Under the pieces are notes generated by a model. It ran no database searches, was not told where the DNA came from, and saw nothing but the letters and a program-made list of their open reading frames with translations. Position numbers and translations under genes: made by a program. Below, piece by piece: positions 43,839 through 52,356 of a stretch of 64,000 nucleotides of DNA (its first letter is position 1; every line of letters begins with the position of its first letter). Source of the DNA: Arthrobacter subterraneus (GTDB taxonomy: Bacteria > Actinomycetota > Actinomycetes > Actinomycetales > Micrococcaceae); NCBI RefSeq assembly GCF_900099735.1, contig NZ_FNDT01000014.1:1-64000 (forward strand). Reading direction: 5' to 3'.

Positions 43839-44768
43839 GTGACTGAAGCTGCGCAGGCCGGGTTCCCCGGCAACTTTTCGGGTGGTTCTTCCGGCAACTT
43901 TTCCGGCGATTTCGCGGGGGGCGCGCCGTCGTCGTTCATTTTGACGCTCTCCTGCGATGACCGGCCCGGGATTGTCCATGCCGTGTCCGGAGCGCTGGTG
44001 GCCGCTGACTGCAACATCACCGAATCCCAGCAGTACGGCAGCCCGGACTCGGGGACGTTCTTCATGCGGGTTGCCATCACCACCAGGTCTGAACGGCGCG
44101 CGGTGGAGGCACATCTGGCCCCGGTGGCCGAGGCGTTCGGGATGACGTGGGGCCTGCACACGGAAGGAACTCCGGCGCGCACGCTGATCATGGCGTCGAA
44201 ATCCGCACACTGCCTCAACGATCTGCTGTTCCAGCAGCGTGCCGGCATGCTGCCCATCGAGGTGCCCGTGATCGTCTCGAACCACACCGATCTCGCCGAG
44301 CTGGCAGCGTTCTACGGCATCGAGTTCCACCACGTTCCGGTAACCGGCGACGGGAAAGCCGAAGCCGAGGAGCGGCTGCTGGAGCTGGTTGCCGAGCACA
44401 GGATCGAGCTTGTGGTGCTGGCGCGCTACATGCAGGTGCTCAGCGACACCCTGTGCTCCCAGCTGGTGGGCCGGGCGATCAACATCCATCACTCGTTCCT
44501 GCCGTCCTTCAAGGGTGCCCGCCCCTACCACCAGGCGCATGCCCGGGGCGTGAAGCTGATTGGCGCGACCGCCCACTACGTGACCCCTGCCCTGGACGAA
44601 GGACCGATTATCGAGCAGGAGGTCATCCGGGTGGATCACGCCCGGACCGCCACCCAGCTGGTGGCCATGGGAGCCGACGTCGAAAGCCGCACCCTCGCGC
44701 AGGCCGTGAAGTGGCACGCCGAGCATCGGGTGCTGCTTGACGGCACGCGTACCGTGGTTTTCAACTGA
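43839..44768 (+). CDS. purU: Formyltetrahydrofolate deformylase
   Basis: This enzyme hydrolyses 10-formyl-THF to formate and THF, balancing the one-carbon pool. Its 309 residues carry an N-terminal ACT domain (FILTLSCDDRPGIVHAVSGALVAADCNI) and a formyltransferase-like domain with NHTDL, LARYMQVLS, the catalytic INIHHSFLPSFKGARPYHQAHARGVKLIGATAHYVTPALDEGPIIEQ. The first 28 residues are an odd Gly/Ser/Phe/Asn repeat (GNFSGGSSGNFSGDF) not seen in typical members (about 280-290 residues). The start is GTG 43839. It is divergent from the riboswitch-controlled glyA-folD unit, so the region is a one-carbon cluster. Confidence 0.95.
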   Translation: MTEAAQAGFPGNFSGGSSGNFSGDFAGGAPSSFILTLSCDDRPGIVHAVSGALVAADCNITESQQYGSPDSGTFFMRVAITTRSERRAVEAHLAPVAEAFGMTWGLHTEGTPARTLIMASKSAHCLNDLLFQQRAGMLPIEVPVIVSNHTDLAELAAFYGIEFHHVPVTGDGKAEAEERLLELVAEHRIELVVLARYMQVLSDTLCSQLVGRAINIHHSFLPSFKGARPYHQAHARGVKLIGATAHYVTPALDEGPIIEQEVIRVDHARTATQLVAMGADVESRTLAQAVKWHAEHRVLLDGTRTVVFN

Positions 44769-44800: not shown

Positions 44801-44974
44801 ATGAGCGAGGAAACACCGCTGCGCTACCGCGTATTGACCGGCCCGGATGACCGCGCCTTCTGCGCCCGGGTCAGCGAGGCGCTCGAGAGCGGGTACCGCC
44901 TGCACGGCTCGCCCTCGGTGACGTACAACGGCGACCGCGTGATCGTGGCGCAGGCTGTGGTCCTCGAGGACTGA
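44801..44974 (+). CDS. DUF1737 family small protein
   Basis: A 57-residue ORF begins at ATG 44801 with GAGGAGA upstream and reads RYRVLTGPDDRAFCARVSEAL, then GYRLHGSPSVTYNGDRVIVAQAVV. This matches the DUF1737 pattern (short beta-rich proteins of unknown function with a Y-x-L-x-G-x-P-D and L-H-G-S-P motif). It follows purU by 32 bases and may be cotranscribed. It is too short for most gene finders, but the pattern is clear. Confidence 0.85.
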   Translation: MSEETPLRYRVLTGPDDRAFCARVSEALESGYRLHGSPSVTYNGDRVIVAQAVVLED

Positions 44975-45040: not shown

Positions 45041-45190
45041 GTGAGCAACCTGGACCGCGAGCAGCGTCGCGGTGAGCAACCCGGACCGAGGTGAGCAACC
45101 TTTCCGCAGCCGGTCGCGGGCGGCAGCCGGTGCGGTGAGTGACCTGGACCGAGGTGAGCAACCTTTCCCTCACCCCGGTCCGGTTTGCTC
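45041..45190. repeat. GTGAGCAACC repeat cluster, left copy
   Basis: The motif GTGAGCAACCTGGACCG and variants occur at 45041, 45072 and 45134; GGTGAGCAACCTTTCC follows at about 45090 and 45153. The segment 45146-45181 forms a 13-bp inverted repeat (GGACCGAGGTGAG/CTCACCCCGGTCC) and ends in TTGCTC at 45190. A 49-base stretch (45142-45190) recurs with five mismatches at 46292-46340. The gap 44975-45205 holds no gene. Confidence 0.8.
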
Positions 45191-45205
45191 CACGTGAAGT
45201 CCATT

Positions 45206-46195
45206 TCACTCACGCCCGCCCCGACCTACCTCTGACGGTCGTCGGCTGGAACGTGGCAAGCCCGCCCTGGTCAGCTCTCGCGCGAGGAGCTGCGGGCCTG
45301 TCGCTTCCCTCCACTCCCACCTCACGACGTTCTTTCCCGTGGCACGAACGCGGTTCTCCCGATTCTTTTCATCGATGACAACCTGGGACGCCGTTCTGCC
45401 GTTCATGTACTCGGGTTTCTGATACTTTCCCCGGCCGTCGAACTCCCCCACCAGCGCGTAATCCTTCCACCAGAAGTCGACCACCGCCGCCAGTCCCATC
45501 TCATCCATCACGCTGTACTGCAGATCGGGCTCAGGAAAACCGAGTTCGGCTATATGCACCCGGCTCAGCGACTCCCCCGGGTACATCGCCCGGCCGTCGG
45601 AGAACTGCAGAACCCGCCGGGCTTTTCGTCTTTTGGCGCCCGATGGAAGCAGTGCCACGCATTCCTCCACTTCGGCTTTCCCTACCGGCCGACGACGGTT
45701 TTCTACCGGAAGGGGCTTGGTGTTGAGCAGCCGGTCCATGACGGCAACCGCCCACGGAAAGTCATAAATGAGCGCGAGGTCGACGGCGGTCTGGACTTTG
45801 TCGGTCACTTGCATGCCATGGTCGAGCGCTACGGGCGTGGACAGGTATGGATCGCGAGTGATCCGACGGACTCCGTTGCTACTCCTACGTCCGCTTCCCA
45901 CCGGCACGATCATCTGGACGTCCGATGGCAGATCAGGCCGGGGAAAACCCCACAGCACTCCAGCAGTTTCTGCGCCGAAGAGCGGAGTCCGACGTGCGGT
46001 GCGAACCATCGCTGCGAGCATTCCCCGGTAGCGTTCCTCGTCTTCAAGCAGCCTCCAATCCTGCGCGTCCACGTAACATCCATGTCTGATCCGGAGCAGC
46101 TCGCCGCTCCTGGCACGTCGGGAGAGTTCGCGCGGCCAGGCCTCGTCGTACGGTTTGTCTGCGCTGGTGCGGATTGGAAGTGGAAAGTCGCCCAT
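45206..46195 (-). CDS. AbiEi-type antitoxin-like / DUF559 nuclease-like protein
   Basis: This 329-residue protein has two parts. The N-terminal half (PWPRELSRRARSGELLRIRHGCYVD... type winged-helix start, then TAGVLWGFPRP) resembles AbiEi/type IV toxin-antitoxin regulators and similar Arthrobacter proteins. The C-terminal part (VVDFWWKDYALVGEFDGRGKYQ..., then RENRVRATGKNVVRWEW) resembles DUF559/Vsr-like PD-(D/E)XK nucleases. No partner toxin is next to it. ATG 46195 is chosen; TTG 46207 is possible. It is flanked on both sides by the GTGAGCAACC repeat clusters, which suggests mobility. Function is a family-level guess. Confidence 0.7.
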   Translation of the reverse strand: MGDFPLPIRTSADKPYDEAWPRELSRRARSGELLRIRHGCYVDAQDWRLLEDEERYRGMLAAMVRTARRTPLFGAETAGVLWGFPRPDLPSDVQMIVPVGSGRRSSNGVRRITRDPYLSTPVALDHGMQVTDKVQTAVDLALIYDFPWAVAVMDRLLNTKPLPVENRRRPVGKAEVEECVALLPSGAKRRKARRVLQFSDGRAMYPGESLSRVHIAELGFPEPDLQYSVMDEMGLAAVVDFWWKDYALVGEFDGRGKYQKPEYMNGRTASQVVIDEKNRENRVRATGKNVVRWEWREATGPQLLARELTRAGLPRSSRRPSEVGRGGRE

Positions 46196-46284
46196 GATTC
46201 CCAGCAAATCCCATCAGCCTGCCGCGCGGGGAAGCCGAACCGGTTCTGTGGATAACGCACTGCGCGGGTGGCGATGGGCAACTC

Positions 46285-46400
46285 GTGAGCAACCTGGACC
46301 GGGGTGAGCAACTTTTCCCTCACCACGGCCCGGATTGCTCGTCGTCGCGTCCGGATTGCTCGTCATCGCGTCCACATTGCTCCCAGCCCCGTCCGGATTG
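46285..46400. repeat. GTGAGCAACC repeat cluster, right copy
   Basis: GTGAGCAACCTGGACCG occurs at 46285 and GGTGAGCAACTTTTCC at about 46303. The inverse form GGATTGCTCGTCGTCGCGTCC follows as 21-base tandem units at 46332-46352, 46353-46373 and, weaker, 46374-46394. With the left cluster it brackets the AbiEi/DUF559-like gene in direct orientation. The gap 46196-46467 has no gene. Confidence 0.8.
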
Positions 46401-46467
46401 CGCCTCGGACCCCGCTGGCCCGCCCGCACCACGGCTCACAGCCCGACTGCGGCGATAGGCTGGGCGG

Positions 46468-46989
46468 ATGGGACACATCATTGAGTTCAGCGGTCATACT
46501 CCCTCGGTTCCGGAGTCGGTGTTCGTGGCGCCTACGGCGTCCATCATCGGTAATGCGACTTTCGGCGAAAACTCTAGCGCCTTCTACGGCGTGAGCGTCC
46601 GGGCAGATACCGCAACCATCAGCATCGGTGAAGGCACCAACCTGCAGGACAATGTCGTCGTGCATGCCGACCCGGGCTTTCCCGCCACTGTCGGGAACCG
46701 GGTCAGCGTGGGGCACAGCGCCGTCGTCCACGGATGCACCATCGAGGACGACTGCCTTGTCGGCATGAGCGCCACCATCATGAACGGCGCCACCGTCGGA
46801 ACCGGGTCGCTGGTTGCTGCCGGCGCCATCGTTCTTGAAGGCACACAGATTCCTCCGCGATCCCTGGTGGCCGGGGTCCCCGCAAAGGTGCGCCGGGAGT
46901 TGACCGATGAGGAACTGCAGGGTGTCCGCAATAACGCGAGGAGGTATCAGGAATTGGCCGCAAGTCACCGAGTTGCGTTTACTTCTTGA
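46468..46989 (+). CDS. Gamma-carbonic anhydrase family / hexapeptide-repeat protein
   Basis: This left-handed beta-helix protein of 173 residues is built from hexapeptide repeats (FVAPTASIIGNATFGENSS, GEGTNLQDNVVVHADPG, VGHSAVVHG, VGMSATIMNGATVG). The three metal-ligand His of the family appear in VVHAD, VGHSAVVHG. Such proteins form trimers and are related to gamma carbonic anhydrases or PaaY/YrdA; catalysis is not certain. It ends 32 bases before the ROK regulator, whose likely -35 overlaps its stop. Confidence 0.9.
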   Translation: MGHIIEFSGHTPSVPESVFVAPTASIIGNATFGENSSAFYGVSVRADTATISIGEGTNLQDNVVVHADPGFPATVGNRVSVGHSAVVHGCTIEDDCLVGMSATIMNGATVGTGSLVAAGAIVLEGTQIPPRSLVAGVPAKVRRELTDEELQGVRNNARRYQELAASHRVAFTS

Positions 46990-47021: not shown

Positions 47022-48230
47022 ATGTCCGTAGAGTCCGCCGCGCCGTCGCGGTCCAACCCTCGTCGAGCCCCCGCCAAACCGGGCTCACAGTCAGCCCTGC
47101 GGCAATCGAACGAGCAGCGGATTGTCCAGGCACTCGCAACCGGAGGCCCGCAGACCCAGGCCGAGCTTGCCCGCCAGACCGGGCTGTCGACGGCGACGGT
47201 CTCCAACATTGTCCGCGGCATGTCCCGCTCGGGAACGGTGACCACCAGTCCAACCACCAGCTCCGGGCGTAGGGCTCTCTCCGTTGCACTCAACGACGAC
47301 GGTTCGGTTGCGGTGGGCATCGACATCGGCCGACGGCACCTGAGGGTTGTTCTTGCGGGGCCTGACTATCGCGTCCTGGGTGAGGAAGCCATCGCCCTCA
47401 AAGCCGGACACACCGCAGCGGAAGGTCTTGATGCAGCGGCGGAGCTCCTCGACAGGCTCCTTGCCGAGCAGGGCATCCCGCGAAGCTCGGTCCTGGGCGC
47501 GGGCATCGGCATCCCGGGGCCCATCGACCGCCGGTCGGGGACGGTCGTGCAGGGCGCAATCCTGCCAGAGTGGGTGGGAATCAACATCCTCGAGACCTTC
47601 GGAAAGCGCCTGGGAATACCCGTATTCATTGACAATGACGCCAATCTCGGCGCCTTGGCGCAGGTCACCTGGGGCCCGCACAGTTCGGTGGAAAATCTCA
47701 TCTTCGTGAAGGTCGGTTCGGGCATCGGCGCAGGGCTTATCCTGAACGGCTCGCTCTATTACGGGAACGTCGGAATCACCGGCGAGCTCGGTCACATGAC
47801 GATCAACGAGCACGGCCTGATCTGCCGGTGCGGCAACCGCGGGTGCCTCGAAACGGTTGCCTCCACGTCGACGATGATCAGTCTGCTTCAGCGCACCACC
47901 GACCGCCCCCTGATGGCACCGGACATTGTGCGACTGGCCCTGCGCGGCGACACCGCCACGCTCCGTGTCATTGACGACGCCGGACTTGCGATCGGACGCG
48001 CGGTGGCCCACGTCGCAAACCTGATCAACCCGGAACTCATCGTTCTCGGCGGCTCCCTCACGGACCTCGGCGACATCCTCCTCGATCCCGTCCGGCGCGG
48101 CCTGCTGCGCCATGCGGTTCCGGTCGTCGGTGAGTCGACCACGGTGTGCATGGGGTCGCTTGGGGAACGGGCGGAAGCACTGGGAGGGGCCGCCGTCGTT
48201 CTCTCCCAACCGAGTTCCATTCTTGGTTGA
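47022..48230 (+). CDS. ROK family transcriptional regulator
   Basis: This 402-residue repressor has an N-terminal winged helix-turn-helix (about 28-78, [32 protein letters not shown]). A ROK domain (ASKHA fold: [76 protein letters not shown]) follows, with the zinc-binding CRCGNRGC motif. It is likely the local regulator of the sugar ABC operon that follows 121 bases downstream; ROK repressors of this type respond to xylose, glucose or related sugars. The start ATG 47022 has AGGA about 11 bases upstream. Confidence 0.92.
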
Positions 48231-48264
48231 GCCTCTAACAGTTCATATCATTTTGCGTTCAAGA

Positions 48265-48295
48265 CTTGACTGCAACACCCCACACAGGGTTAACT
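48265..48295 (+). promoter_or_regulatory. Likely promoter/operator of the sugar ABC operon
   Basis: TTGACT (48266-48271) and TTAACT (48290-48295) are 18 bases apart, 57 bases upstream of mmsA. The 12-mer CTTGACTGCAAC (48265-48276) overlapping the -35 also occurs, with one change, upstream of the ROK gene. Confidence 0.4.
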
Positions 48296-48351
48296 TTTCT
48301 TCGGGCCATCAACGGCCTGCAGACAGCGCCGTCAGTCGCGGGAAGGCCTCC

Positions 48352-49890
48352 ATGGATAATCACATCATCCTCGAGATGCAGTCGATCACGAAGGAATTCC
48401 CCGGCGTGAAAGCGCTGGACAACGTTTCCTTGTCCGTCACAGCAGGTGAAATCCACGCGATCTGCGGCGAGAACGGCGCGGGCAAGTCGACGCTCATGAA
48501 GGTTCTCTCCGGGGTTTATCCTCACGGCACCTACAGCGGACGGATTGTCTTCCAGGGCAGGGAAGTCCAGTTCAAGGACATCCGGTCCAGCGAAGCGGCC
48601 GGCATTGTGATCATCCACCAGGAGCTGGCTCTCATTCCGGAGCTGTCCATCGCTGAGAACATCTTTCTCGGCAACGAGCCAACGCGTTTCGGAGTCATCA
48701 ACTGGGACAAGGTGAACTCGGACACCCTCGAGCTGATGGCCCGTGTGGGTCTCCGGGAGGAGCCGACCACCAAGGTCAAGGACATCGGAGTGGGCAAACA
48801 GCAGCTTGTCGAGATCGCCAAGGCCCTGAGCAAGTCGGTCAAGCTGCTCATCCTCGATGAGCCAACTGCGGCGCTTAATGAGTCGGACTCACAGCACCTC
48901 CTGGACCTGATGGCCGGGCTGCGGTCCAAGGGCATCTCATGCATCATGATCTCGCACAAGCTCAACGAGATCGAGCAGATCGCCGACTCCATCACCATCA
49001 TCCGTGACGGCAAATCCATCGAAACCCTCCACGTTAAGAACGACGGCGTGGACGAGGACCGCATTATCCGCGGGATGGTGGGACGCTCCCTTGAGTCACG
49101 GTTCCCCGACCACACCCCGAAGATCGGCGAGGTCTTCTTTGAGGTACGAAACTGGACCGTCGGGCACCCTGCTGTCGGCGACCGTCTGGTCTGCAAGAAC
49201 TCGAATTTCACGGTACGCCGCGGGGAAATCGTGGGATTCGCCGGTCTGATGGGCGCCGGACGCACGGAGCTCGCCCGCTCGGTGTTTGGACGCTCCTACG
49301 GAAATTTCAAGTCCGGGCAGATCTTTAAGGACGGCAAGGAGATCCAGCTCCGAAATGTTGCGCAGGCCATTGAGCACGGCCTCGCGTATGTCACTGAGGA
49401 CCGGAAGTCGCTCGGGCTGAATCTGCTCGATGACATCAAAGCCACCACTGTGGCAGCCAACCTGCAGAAGATCACCAAGGGTCTGGTGGTGGACGCTGAC
49501 CAGGAATTCGTGGTCGCCGAGGAGTACCGGAAATCACTGCGGACCAAGACCCCCAGTGTGAATGAAGGCGTCGCAAAGCTCTCCGGCGGCAACCAGCAGA
49601 AAGTTGTGCTCGCCAAGTGGATGTTCACCGATCCAGACCTGTTGATCCTTGACGAGCCGACCCGTGGCATCGACGTCGGTGCAAAGTATGAAATCTATGG
49701 AATCATCCAGCGTCTGGCCGATCAGGGGAAGGGCGTCATCGTCATTTCATCGGAGCTGCCGGAGCTCCTCGGACTCTCCGACCGGATTTACACCATTTTC
49801 GAAGGCGCAATCACCGGCGAGGTGAGCCGTGACGAAGCAAGCCAGGAATCCCTGATGAAACTCATGACCGCCAGCAGGAAATCTGCTTGA
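48352..49890 (+). CDS. mmsA: Multiple-monosaccharide ABC transporter ATP-binding protein
   Basis: This tandem-ATPase subunit of the GguA/MmsA/XylG class has 512 residues. The first domain has Walker [26 protein letters not shown] and Walker [13 protein letters not shown]. The second has [20 protein letters not shown] and [14 protein letters not shown] with [20 protein letters not shown]. The phrase [13 protein letters not shown] is typical of GguA. The frame is open from 48112, but ATG 48352 with GGAAGG upstream gives [23 protein letters not shown]. It is the first gene of ATPase - permease - binding protein. Confidence 0.93.
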
Positions 49891-49913
49891 ACCGCTGCCA
49901 AGGAGCTACCACA

Positions 49914-51203
49914 ATGAATTCTCTCAAGAAACTCTTTGGCGGTAATACCCGCCAGTTCGGAATGATCTTCGCGCTGATCGCGCTGGTGATCTTCTTCCAG
50001 TGGCAGACGGGTGGAAAGACCCTGACGTCCGCGAACATGATGAACCTGTTCAACGGAAACTCCTACATCCTCATTCTGGCCATCGGTATGGTGCTCGTCA
50101 TCATCGCCGGCCATATTGACCTTTCAGTGGGGTCAATCGCTGCCTTCGCCGGCATCGTGGTGGCGATCGCCATGCGGGACTGGGGCATCCCCTGGTACAT
50201 GGGTATCCTCGTCGGGCTTGGTCTGGGCGCCCTGATCGGCATTTGGCAGGGGTTCTGGGTTGCCTACGTCGGCATACCGGCGTTCATCGTCACGCTCGCG
50301 GGTATGCTGCTCTTCCGCGGTGCCAACCAGTTCGTTGGGAAGTCGAACACCGTTCCTGTGCCGCAGGAGTTCCAGTACATCGGTTCCGGCTACCTTCCCG
50401 AGGTTGGACCAGTCACCGGCTACAACAACCTCACCCTGCTGCTCGGTTTCCTCCTCGTTGGAGTGGTGATCTACAACGAGCTGAAGAACCGCAAGCGGCT
50501 TGAGCGGGTCGGTGCGGAAACACCGGAGATGTGGGTTTCAGTCCTCAAGATCGCCCTCGTCTCTGCGGCCATTCTGTACGCCACCTACCTTTTTGCCACC
50601 GGGCGCCCGGGCACCTCGTTTCCGATCCCCGGGCTGATCCTCGGCGTCCTCGTCATCATCTACGGCTTCATCTCCAACAAGACCATCGCCGGTCGACACG
50701 TGTACGCCGTCGGCGGCAACCGCCACGCAGCAGAGCTGTCCGGCGTCAAGAGCCGCCGCATCAACTTCCTTGTCATGATGAACATGTCCATCCTTGCCTC
50801 GCTGGCCGGCATGATCTTCGTTGGCCGCTCCACCGCATCCGGCCCGTTTGACGGCGTCGGTTGGGAACTTGACGCGATTGCCGCCGTATTTATCGGCGGT
50901 GCGGCGGTGACCGGCGGCGTCGGCACCGTTGTGGGTTCGATCATCGGGGGCCTCGTGATGGCCGTCCTCAACAACGGCCTCCAGCTGCTGGGTATCGGCG
51001 CTGATATGACGCAGATCATCAAGGGCCTGGTGCTGCTGGTCGCCGTCGCGTTCGATGTCTACAACAAGAGCCAGGGCAAGCCGTCCATCACCGGCCTCCT
51101 TGCACGCGGCTTCGGCGGCGGCCGGAACAAGCCGGAGGCGCCTGCAGACGCGGAGGAGAACCTGGCCGCCCGGGAGGCCGTCGGCACCAAACAGGTCCTC
51201 TGA
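49914..51203 (+). CDS. mmsB: Multiple-monosaccharide ABC transporter permease
   Basis: This inner-membrane permease of the GguB/XylH class has 429 residues and about ten hydrophobic segments. Characteristic pieces are MVLVIIAGHIDLSVGSIAAFAGIVVA, FIVTLAGMLLFRGANQ and the cytoplasmic loop YAVGGNRHAAELSGVKSRRINFLVM (EAA-type), plus AIAAVFIGGAAVTGGVGTVVGSIIGGLVMAVLNNGL. AAGGAG precedes ATG 49914. The tail after about residue 395 is polar. It sits between the ATPase and the binding protein. Confidence 0.93.
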   Translation: MNSLKKLFGGNTRQFGMIFALIALVIFFQWQTGGKTLTSANMMNLFNGNSYILILAIGMVLVIIAGHIDLSVGSIAAFAGIVVAIAMRDWGIPWYMGILVGLGLGALIGIWQGFWVAYVGIPAFIVTLAGMLLFRGANQFVGKSNTVPVPQEFQYIGSGYLPEVGPVTGYNNLTLLLGFLLVGVVIYNELKNRKRLERVGAETPEMWVSVLKIALVSAAILYATYLFATGRPGTSFPIPGLILGVLVIIYGFISNKTIAGRHVYAVGGNRHAAELSGVKSRRINFLVMMNMSILASLAGMIFVGRSTASGPFDGVGWELDAIAAVFIGGAAVTGGVGTVVGSIIGGLVMAVLNNGLQLLGIGADMTQIIKGLVLLVAVAFDVYNKSQGKPSITGLLARGFGGGRNKPEAPADAEENLAAREAVGTKQVL

Positions 51204-51261
51204 CGGACCTCTTCAAGCTTCATTGACCAACAAAGCAAAAATGCTAAAGAAAGAGAATGGA

Positions 51262-52356
51262 ATGCGTAATTTCGCAAAATCCTTCGCAGCTATTGCTGCA
51301 ATTTCAGCGCTGGCGCTGACCTCGTGCGGCCGTGAGGATACGGGTACGGGCACCGAAGGCGGCGGCGAGGCAGCTGCCGGTTTCGAAGAAGGCGCAGCAA
51401 TCGGTGTTGCCCTTCCCCAGAAGACCTCGGAAAACTGGGTTCTGGCAGAGCAGCTGTTCAACGATGGTCTGACTGAAGCCGGGTATGAGCCCGACGTACA
51501 GTTCGCCAACGGCGGAGTCTCGGAGCAGCAGAACCAGATCAGCTCCATGATCACCAATGGTGTCGAGGTTCTGATCGTCGGTGCGATCGACGGCGCCCAG
51601 CTCGGCACCCAGCTGCAGCAGGCCAAGGACGCCGGCATCACCGTCATCGCCTATGATCGTCTGCTGACCAACACCGAGAACGTTGACTACTACGTTGCGT
51701 ACGACAACTTCCAGGTCGGCGAACTCCAGGGCCAGGCGCTTCTGGACGGCATGGCCGAACGCGGCGAGGGTCCGTACAACATTGAGCTGTTCGCAGGGTC
51801 CCCCGACGATGCCAACGCTCAGGTCTTCTTCGACGGCGCCATGAGCGTGCTGCAGCCCGAAATCGAAGCCGGCAACCTCAATGTTGTCTCCGGCCAGACC
51901 GAGTTCAACCAGGCGGTGACCCAGGGCTGGAAGGCCGAGAACGCCCAGCGCCGCATGGACACACTGCTGACCGGCAACTACACCGACACGGAGCTGCACG
52001 GCGTCCTCTCCCCCAACGACACCCTGGCCCGCGCAATCCTGACGTCCGTCAAGGCTGCCGGCAAGGACCTGCCGATCGTCACTGGGCAGGATTCGGAGGT
52101 TGAGTCGGTCAAGTCGATCATGGCCGGCGAGCAGTACTCCACCATCAACAAGGACACCCGCGACCTGGTTGCCCACGCGATCACCATGGTGGAGGGTCTC
52201 GCCGCAGGCGAGGAACTCGAGGTCAACGACACCGAGACCTACGACAACGGGGTAAAGGTGGTTCCGGCCTACCTCCTCGAGCCGCAGATCGTCACCCAGG
52301 AAAACGCTGCCGAAGCGTACGCCGACGATCCCACGCTCTCTGAACTGACCAAGTAG
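51262..52356 (+). CDS. chvE: Sugar ABC transporter substrate-binding lipoprotein (ChvE type)
   Basis: This surface lipoprotein binds monosaccharides (ChvE/XylF-like periplasmic-binding fold). Of its 364 residues the first 22 are a signal with lipobox LALTSC, followed by a Gly/Glu/Thr linker. The mature part holds IGVALPQKTSENWVLAEQLF, LIVGAIDGAQLGTQLQQAKDAGITVIAYDRLL and GTVLSPNDTLARAI-type segments; the DRLL and Asn/Asp pocket residues fit sugar binding. ATG 51262 is chosen (AAAGAGA upstream); ATG 51241 is possible. A strong terminator follows, so the Gfo/Idh gene has separate transcription. Confidence 0.9.
   Translation: MRNFAKSFAAIAAISALALTSCGREDTGTGTEGGGEAAAGFEEGAAIGVALPQKTSENWVLAEQLFNDGLTEAGYEPDVQFANGGVSEQQNQISSMITNGVEVLIVGAIDGAQLGTQLQQAKDAGITVIAYDRLLTNTENVDYYVAYDNFQVGELQGQALLDGMAERGEGPYNIELFAGSPDDANAQVFFDGAMSVLQPEIEAGNLNVVSGQTEFNQAVTQGWKAENAQRRMDTLLTGNYTDTELHGVLSPNDTLARAILTSVKAAGKDLPIVTGQDSEVESVKSIMAGEQYSTINKDTRDLVAHAITMVEGLAAGEELEVNDTETYDNGVKVVPAYLLEPQIVTQENAAEAYADDPTLSELTK

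Follow-up and report, generated by a model that had tools for sequence, protein, structure and literature searches.

Our study revealed that a gene of Arthrobacter subterraneus encoding a predicted AbiEi-fold, Vsr-like nuclease lies between two copies of a palindromic element, that many related genes are bracketed by palindromes of different sequence, and that copies of such palindromes are scattered through a small number of genomes, most of which carry the matching gene. On balance, this probably represents a resident site-specific nuclease accompanied by its own REPIN-like palindromes, a partnership resembling that of REPINs and RAYTs and built upon an unrelated enzyme. The basis for this reading consists of the bracketing, the pairing of subfamily with palindrome, the dispersal, the restriction to carrier clades and the purifying selection, all of which were observed, together with a predicted fold.

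Repeat clusters and palindromic elements at the locus

The window analysed here is a stretch of 64,000 nt of contig NZ_FNDT01000014.1. The original prediction reported a 49-base direct repeat bracketing a single gene, and this was reproduced in full: the stretch at 45142-45190 recurs at 46292-46340 in the same orientation with exactly 5 mismatches, a repeat finder lengthens the pair to 68 nt (82 %), and a single gene (45209-46195, reverse strand) lies between the two repeat clusters. The reported alternation of two repeats was also recovered, with a 19-base step at three pairs of positions (45072/45091, 45135/45154 and 46285/46304), the copy at 45135 being GTGAGTGACC. The alternating ‘partner’, GTGAGCAACCTTTCC, was found to be the spacer, or middle, of a palindrome, and an additional copy of it was listed at 45091-45105 on the forward strand. 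Searching the window for the arm GAGCAAYCYGGAC with up to 2 mismatches yielded 18 matches against 8.3 expected, and 9 of these 18 fell within 45043-46403: on the forward strand at 45043, 45074, 45137 and 46287, and on the reverse strand at 45178, 46328, 46349, 46370 and 46391. These positions and orientations indicate that each cluster consists of a palindrome, whose arms start 41 nt from each other, together with extra arms.

The palindromic elements 3′ (45137-45190) and 5′ (46287-46340) of the gene both comprise inverted 13 bp arms 41 nt apart around a 28 nt spacer, with 2 + 1 and 0 + 1 mismatches to the pattern, respectively, and were calculated on paper, with RNA parameters, to form hairpins of -34.2 and -36.7 kcal/mol. 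Because the elements are palindromes, the bracketing copies score in either the direct or the inverted sense. The extra arms are three in tandem at 21 nt steps on the reverse strand (46349, 46370 and 46391, spanning 46349-46403, with 0, 1 and 1 mismatches) and two that match the arm pattern 31 nt apart on the forward strand (45043 and 45074, spanning 45043-45086). No known RNA or tRNA features were found at the locus. All five copies of the 10-mer GTGAGCAACC in the window fall within 45041-46294, against 0.16 copies expected in the window from shuffles. Genome-wide, 11 additional matches to this 10-mer lie outside the locus, which is approximately the window shuffle rate scaled to 3.9 Mb; at this scale, the bare 10-mer GTGAGCAACC is uninformative, in contrast to the longer arm and the palindrome.

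The gene and its predicted product

The gene encodes a protein of 329 amino acids, with an ATG start at 46195 that was chosen via orthologue alignment and a stop codon at 45206-45208; the longer ORF (45206-46207) begins at TTG. Pfam returned for the window protein a weak AbiEi_4 match alone, under the curated cut-off. Among 20 homologues, AbiEi_4 was matched in 16 and the Vsr-type model REase_MTES_1575 in 6, both at E values of up to 0.1, and DUF559 in 1, whereas the PADLOC AbiEi models matched up to 19 of the 20 members at E values of up to 0.1 and a search of NCBIfam gave no meaningful family. REase_MTES_1575 is described as a Vsr-type nuclease family (PMC3710099). The gene had initially been labelled AbiEi/DUF559-like; its AbiEi and nuclease parts were upheld, and REase_MTES_1575 is a nearer description of the latter than DUF559.

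The AF2 model of the window protein had a mean pLDDT of 88.8. In this predicted structure, residues 4-200 were similar to the AbiEi antitoxin 6y8q (Z 11.1, rmsd 5.8 over 173 residues) and to 1zel (Rv2827c; Z 7.8), residues 205-314 to the homing endonuclease I-Bth0305I (3r3p; Z 11.4, rmsd 2.7 over 94 residues) and residues 203-314 to Vsr (1cw0; Z 10.3). Residues 51-200 also matched nucleotidyltransferase toxins, such as MenT1 (8an5; Z 7.8), which was read as the AbiEi C-terminal fold; a Z of <8 can reflect a common arrangement. The protein is therefore modelled as a predicted DNA-binding AbiEi fold joined to a Vsr/homing-endonuclease-type nuclease, from which DNA binding and nuclease activity are predicted. 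Residues E208, D240, E251, D253 and K257 were invariant in 20/20 sequences, with identities down to 24 %, and form a candidate catalytic site by comparison with the Vsr/PD-(D/E)XK pattern. The dN/dS values of 0.10-0.16 in 5 pairs indicate purifying selection.

Genomic site and distribution of the gene

The conserved site is occupied on one side by a purU-like formyltransferase (43839-44768, forward strand; Pfam Formyl_trans_N and ACT), for which we assume the name purU, and a small DUF1737 protein (44801-44971, forward strand; Pfam), and on the other by a hexapeptide, gamma-carbonic-anhydrase-like protein (46468-46989, forward strand; Pfam Hexapep), presumably meriting the carbonic anhydrase name. 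The hexapeptide neighbour had a strong match in 37/38 genomes of the genus and only weak matches in G031. By ORFs and Pfam, these neighbours include neither an AbiEii nucleotidyltransferase toxin beside the gene nor any known defence gene directly adjoining it, which agrees with its earlier description as an orphan. After the locus, ORF translations at 47022-52356 revealed an ordinary sugar-uptake operon, which we take to comprise a ROK regulator and ABC transporter parts.

Some homologue was present in 21/38 genomes of the genus (the second piece of the G021 homologue was left out of this search), and a close group, subfamily A, with 58-81 % identity to the window protein, in 7/38. All seven carriers (7/7) harbour one subfamily A copy per genome at the same site beside the carbonic-anhydrase-like gene, where it looks to have been inherited vertically; copies were counted per subfamily, and other subfamilies may co-occur in one genome. 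Palindrome arms flank the gene on both sides in 7/7 carriers, the low flank scores in G037 and G018 being due to divergence of the copies. The orthologous site was inspected in 12 genomes, namely that of the window, 8 that are empty, G024 and 2 with other neighbours (G010 and G023). The eight empty sites (G012, G032, G015, G033, G005, G008, G003 and G020) have the same neighbours with neither the gene nor an arm by the pattern used, so the locus is not fixed in the genus, in line with the original prediction. G024 (L136) contains no nuclease gene between purU and the carbonic-anhydrase-like gene, only a lone arm that is apparently the scar of a lost cassette. No phage record was matched by the searches for a phage origin, and plasmid records gave 3 partial matches only.

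Homologues bracketed by other palindromes

Other members of the gene family were also found to be bracketed by repeats, with different palindromes. Within the genus, 32/51 homologue loci had an upstream/downstream flank repeat score of at least 20 and 19/51 fell below this, as compared to 0/108 control genes (maximum 18); as these loci share ancestry, the 32 cases do not represent independent events. The 108 control genes were drawn from the window and from L159-L169, separately from the 51 loci, with the same flank lengths. Approximately 10 distinct palindrome sequences were distinguished by eye among the bracketed loci. In Microbacteriaceae, 5 of 7 loci (Agreia, Subtercola, Herbiconiux and one unclassified) scored at least 24 and the others 19.5 and 12.5; L159-L162 are the same loci as L041, L045, L046 and L043, and were counted once.

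Flank repeats were common to 45/45 protein pairs at ≥70 % identity, 95/344 at 40-69 % and 3/1207 at <40 %, with shared neighbouring genes inflating the high-identity end. Subfamily B has its own palindrome and its own single chromosomal site, both different from those of A, with neighbours that we assume to be glpX and a FemX-type gene. On the tree, B appears to branch within A, which makes at least one change of palindrome and site probable. Among pairs of related loci, ends within a locus resembled each other more closely than the corresponding ends between species in 6/14 usable pairs and not so in 8/14, which fits homogenization of the ends in some lineages only; 2 further pairs were dropped and comparisons with L204 were left out, as its gene is frameshifted and its downstream element was missed.

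The window genome (G000) carries a second AbiEi-Vsr gene (L188, at G000:C23:13272-14096), bracketed by a different palindrome, family D, with arms GAAACTGCCCGGAGGTGCAGG 43 nt apart. A sister gene, L192 in G031, grouped with the C genes on the tree and had neither a flank repeat nor elements, and a Fisher test for family C that assumed 4/38 carriers was set aside for this reason. Similar flanks were also seen across families, in L050, L051 and L061 from Arthrobacter and L166 and L169 from Subtercola, possibly marking one very old insertion site; upstream of L050 and L051 there seems to be the terminal part of what is presumably a tuf-like gene.

Dispersed palindromes and their carriers

Matches to the family A arm, flanking copies included, numbered 29 in G037, 22 in G029, 16 in G027, 14 in G036, 13 in G000, 10 in G013 and 10 in G018, which are the carriers, and among non-carriers 12 in G024, 8 in G015 and 0-4 in the other genomes, compared to 0-2 per genome for a reversed-pattern control. 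In eight low-count genomes, single A-arm matches mostly had no second arm nearby. The full A palindrome with perfect arms was found in 9/395 genomes of the family, confined to one genus among the 32 searched: the 7 carriers (1-7 each), G015 (1) and G031 (1), the last of which looks like a plain terminator and was not counted as support. Within the genus this corresponds to 7/7 carriers versus 2/31 other genomes (Fisher p 2.9e-6, with no correction for relatedness). The original prediction linked the repeats to this gene family, and they are indeed dispersed but linked to it, rather than widespread and unlinked.

The family B palindrome was detected in 5/38 genomes, comprising the gene carriers G012 (8), G037 (5) and G032 (2) and two genomes without a B gene, G036 (2) and G000 (1). 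Family C sites occurred in G012 (8), G037 (8), G032 (5), G036 (3) and G013 (2), and in 0 of the other 33 genomes; the C gene lies between two copies in G012, G037, G032 and G036 (where one of the two bracketing copies reaches the pattern threshold), and G013 is without a C gene. Arm matches of family D were found in G000 (11), G012 (12), G037 (12), G036 (11), G013 (8) and G018 (3), with 0-2 elsewhere, and G000 has four clear sites away from L188 (three on C24, one on C54) plus one weak single arm. Reversed-pattern controls for B, C and D gave 0 in the genomes having those palindromes. Of the genomes with family D elements, G036 and G013 lack a clear D gene, and a frameshift and a stop disrupt those of G037 and G018. 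Elements in genomes without an intact matching gene indicate that they outlive the genes or act in some other way, and strict one-to-one pairing of gene and element is ruled out by G013, G015, G024 and G036. Overall, dispersal of the four palindrome families is limited to a small number of genomes; most of these carry the matching gene, but there are clear exceptions.

A total of 36 dispersed sites were fetched and 33 counted, after dropping L103 and L110 (single arm) and L214 (inside a predicted antisense ORF). With gene ends taken from a simple ORF caller, the nearest gene end was a 3′ end in 30/33, with 26/33 sites within 60 nt of a 3′ end and 5/33 within 60 nt of a 5′ end; the flanking genes were convergent at 11 sites, tandem at 20 and divergent at 2. 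All 33 are intergenic with respect to the predicted genes, or extend no more than 34 nt into the end of one. Several coincide in position between two or three species; the sites are therefore not independent, and as many are shared across species, recent activity is not demonstrated. Arm spacings of 20-21, 41-43 and 60-62 nt accounted for 34/37 cases among the matches listed, and the arms of family D were 43 nt apart in 19/20 opposite-strand pairs. Spacings of about two helical turns or multiples thereof suggest binding to duplex DNA.

At one intergenic site (L264-L268 and L101), inspection by eye showed an A-type element in G000, G037 and G013 and a C-like element in G012, G036 and G032, and the arms of the G013 copy have changed yet still pair with each other. 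Different palindrome families at one intergenic site suggest preferred landing places after genes. At another site, a C element is present in G012, G037 and G036 and not in G013 (by eye on the alignment). The alignment of G012 and G037 stops at a family C element at two sites (L205/L211 and L206/L210), as if the elements were rearrangement points. Nine short elements have a variable spacer with no significant pairing (p 0.08), and hence no claim is made for a selected inner fold; at two degenerate arm positions of these elements, the partners pair in 15/18 cells. At a site common to G029 and G027, the arms are identical, as compared to 18/29 positions of the spacer and 252/290 of the left flank, although arm conservation is partly by construction because the compared elements were found via their arms.

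Discussion

REP sequences are characterized by GTAG/CGTC tags. The present elements resemble REPINs, as described in PMC8049555, PMC3116915 and PMC3733652, in having two inverted arms around a variable spacer, a capacity to form hairpins and copies outside genes, and the gene resembles RAYT genes, in the same sources, in being single-copy, vertically inherited and flanked by elements that are more numerous in carrier genomes. In nine elements, a variable spacer was found between inverted arms that the search pattern had fixed, the counted sites are intergenic or nearly so, and the flanked enzyme gene of subfamily A was single-copy and apparently vertical in 7/7 carriers. However, the enzyme here combines an AbiEi fold with a Vsr-like nuclease and is not a Y1/HUH transposase, and there are 1-7 perfect-arm palindromes per carrier, in contrast to the at least 69 REPINs per genome given for Escherichia coli in PMC8049555. 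The profile of the Y1 (RAYT-type) transposase, PF01797, was detected in 0/38 genomes of the genus and in 5/14 control genomes, which rules against a RAYT as the mover of these palindromes; as the defining Y1 enzyme was not found in the 38 genomes, the system is not a member of REPIN/RAYT. With respect to insertion sequences and MITEs, the gene is single-copy per subfamily and no target-site duplication was definable; among the genomes compared, which differ at the species level, no element boundary or target-site duplication was found and no new insertion was caught between close strains.

The protein shares with AbiEi antitoxins of type IV toxin–antitoxin systems (AbiEi and Rv2827c) the DNA-binding fold of residues 4-200 and inverted repeats beside the gene. 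It differs from AbiE systems in its extra C-terminal nuclease domain and in having repeats on both sides and dispersed, and a typical AbiE pair was rejected as no AbiEii toxin gene is adjacent. Residues 205-314 are predicted to share the catalytic fold of Vsr-type nucleases such as I-Bth0305I and REase_MTES_1575, but, unlike Vsr-type homing endonucleases, the gene has no host intron or intein, is situated in an intergenic position and is fused to an AbiEi fold. The association of enzyme and element fits none of the known kinds tested. A gene between two palindrome copies, other copies scattered after genes and many relatives with palindromes of their own together suggest a nuclease partnered with small DNA elements resident in the genome, in a form not described so far. 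Among the titles and abstract openings of open-access articles, a set excluding subscription papers and preprints, none ties this protein family to palindromes. RepRanger (PMC12306157) lists an Arthrobacter species in a table, and the words RAYT, transposase and endonuclease are absent from its main text.

We infer that the protein binds the arms, acts as a nuclease and causes the dispersal. Under this mechanism, the AbiEi part would bind the 13 bp inverted arms of the palindromic element, and the Vsr/homing-endonuclease-like part would nick or cut DNA at or near it. According to PMC7319586, AbiEi proteins bind pairs of 23 bp inverted repeats in their own promoters, and by analogy the window protein may bind its arms in the same manner; the earlier idea that the repeats are targets of the encoded protein is thus plausible. 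Over long times, the nuclease could aid the rise of new copies, by cutting and then either repair or the copying of another element, and could keep the copies alike. The scattered copies, mostly about 60 nt or less from the 3′ ends of genes, would constitute a small REPIN-like population, whilst the nuclease gene would stay single-copy at one place and be inherited vertically, with protein subfamilies each having their own palindromes. If the inference holds, the system behaves as an analogue of REPIN/RAYT.

The strongest rival to such a resident nuclease is an autoregulating AbiEi-like transcription factor, for which the palindromes would be operators and the dispersed copies a regulon, the nuclease domain having another role or being a relic. 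The binding of AbiEi antitoxins to inverted repeats in their own promoter, as reported in PMC7319586, the similarity of residues 4-200 to AbiEi (6y8q; Z 11.1) and an arm spacing near two helical turns, which is appropriate for contact with a single face of duplex DNA, are all consistent with a regulator. However, the dispersed copies lie after genes, with a 3′ end nearest in 30/33 and only 5/33 within 60 nt of a 5′ end, one bracketing copy is downstream of the gene, and the candidate catalytic residues are invariant. Copies after genes and a conserved nuclease speak against a regulator as the full story, and we regard it as unlikely. Less probable again is a history in which the palindromes were spread by some other mobile element or by gradual recombination and function as terminators or mRNA ends, with the nuclease gene merely lying between two of them. 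This would explain strong hairpins just after genes and the persistence of some palindromes without the gene, but not readily the bracketing of one gene family with different palindromes against 0/108 other genes, nor the occurrence of the full palindrome in one genus of 32 searched, and no Y1 transposase was found with PF01797, the transposase profile searched.

The original prediction also raised a mobile defence cassette, moved by its flanking repeats and attacking invading DNA. Its patchy presence, the PADLOC AbiEi models matching up to 19/20 members at E values of up to 0.1, and the fact that a conserved nuclease, even when encoded by a vertically inherited gene, could act in defence would all accord with this. 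Nevertheless, what PADLOC recognizes is similarity to the AbiEi antitoxin only, neither a toxin gene nor a known defence gene directly adjoins the nuclease gene, there is no phage record and just 3 partial plasmid matches, and subfamilies A and B occupy one chromosomal site each. No evidence of defence was found, subfamily A is at one site in 7/7 carriers and it is the palindromes that are dispersed; we therefore consider a defence cassette the least probable of these readings and improbable in itself.

Returning to the nuclease with its own palindromes, a broader proposal, to which we give slightly less than even confidence, is that actinobacterial AbiEi-Vsr nucleases are a class of engines of their own miniature palindromes. 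This would be an independent invention of a REPIN/RAYT-like arrangement, in which many enzyme/palindrome pairs diverged together and a homing-type nuclease, in place of a tyrosine transposase, seeds and homogenizes elements after genes. Scattered intergenic palindromes are an old puzzle in bacteria; for one large group of them the responsible enzyme is known, namely the RAYT transposase. If a further enzyme family, unrelated to RAYTs, proved to have matched palindromes of its own, partnerships of this kind would have arisen in evolution more than once. Proteins at present annotated as hypothetical or as orphan AbiEi antitoxins would gain a role, and many natural enzyme/site pairs would become available in which to study the joint change of nucleases and their DNA sites.
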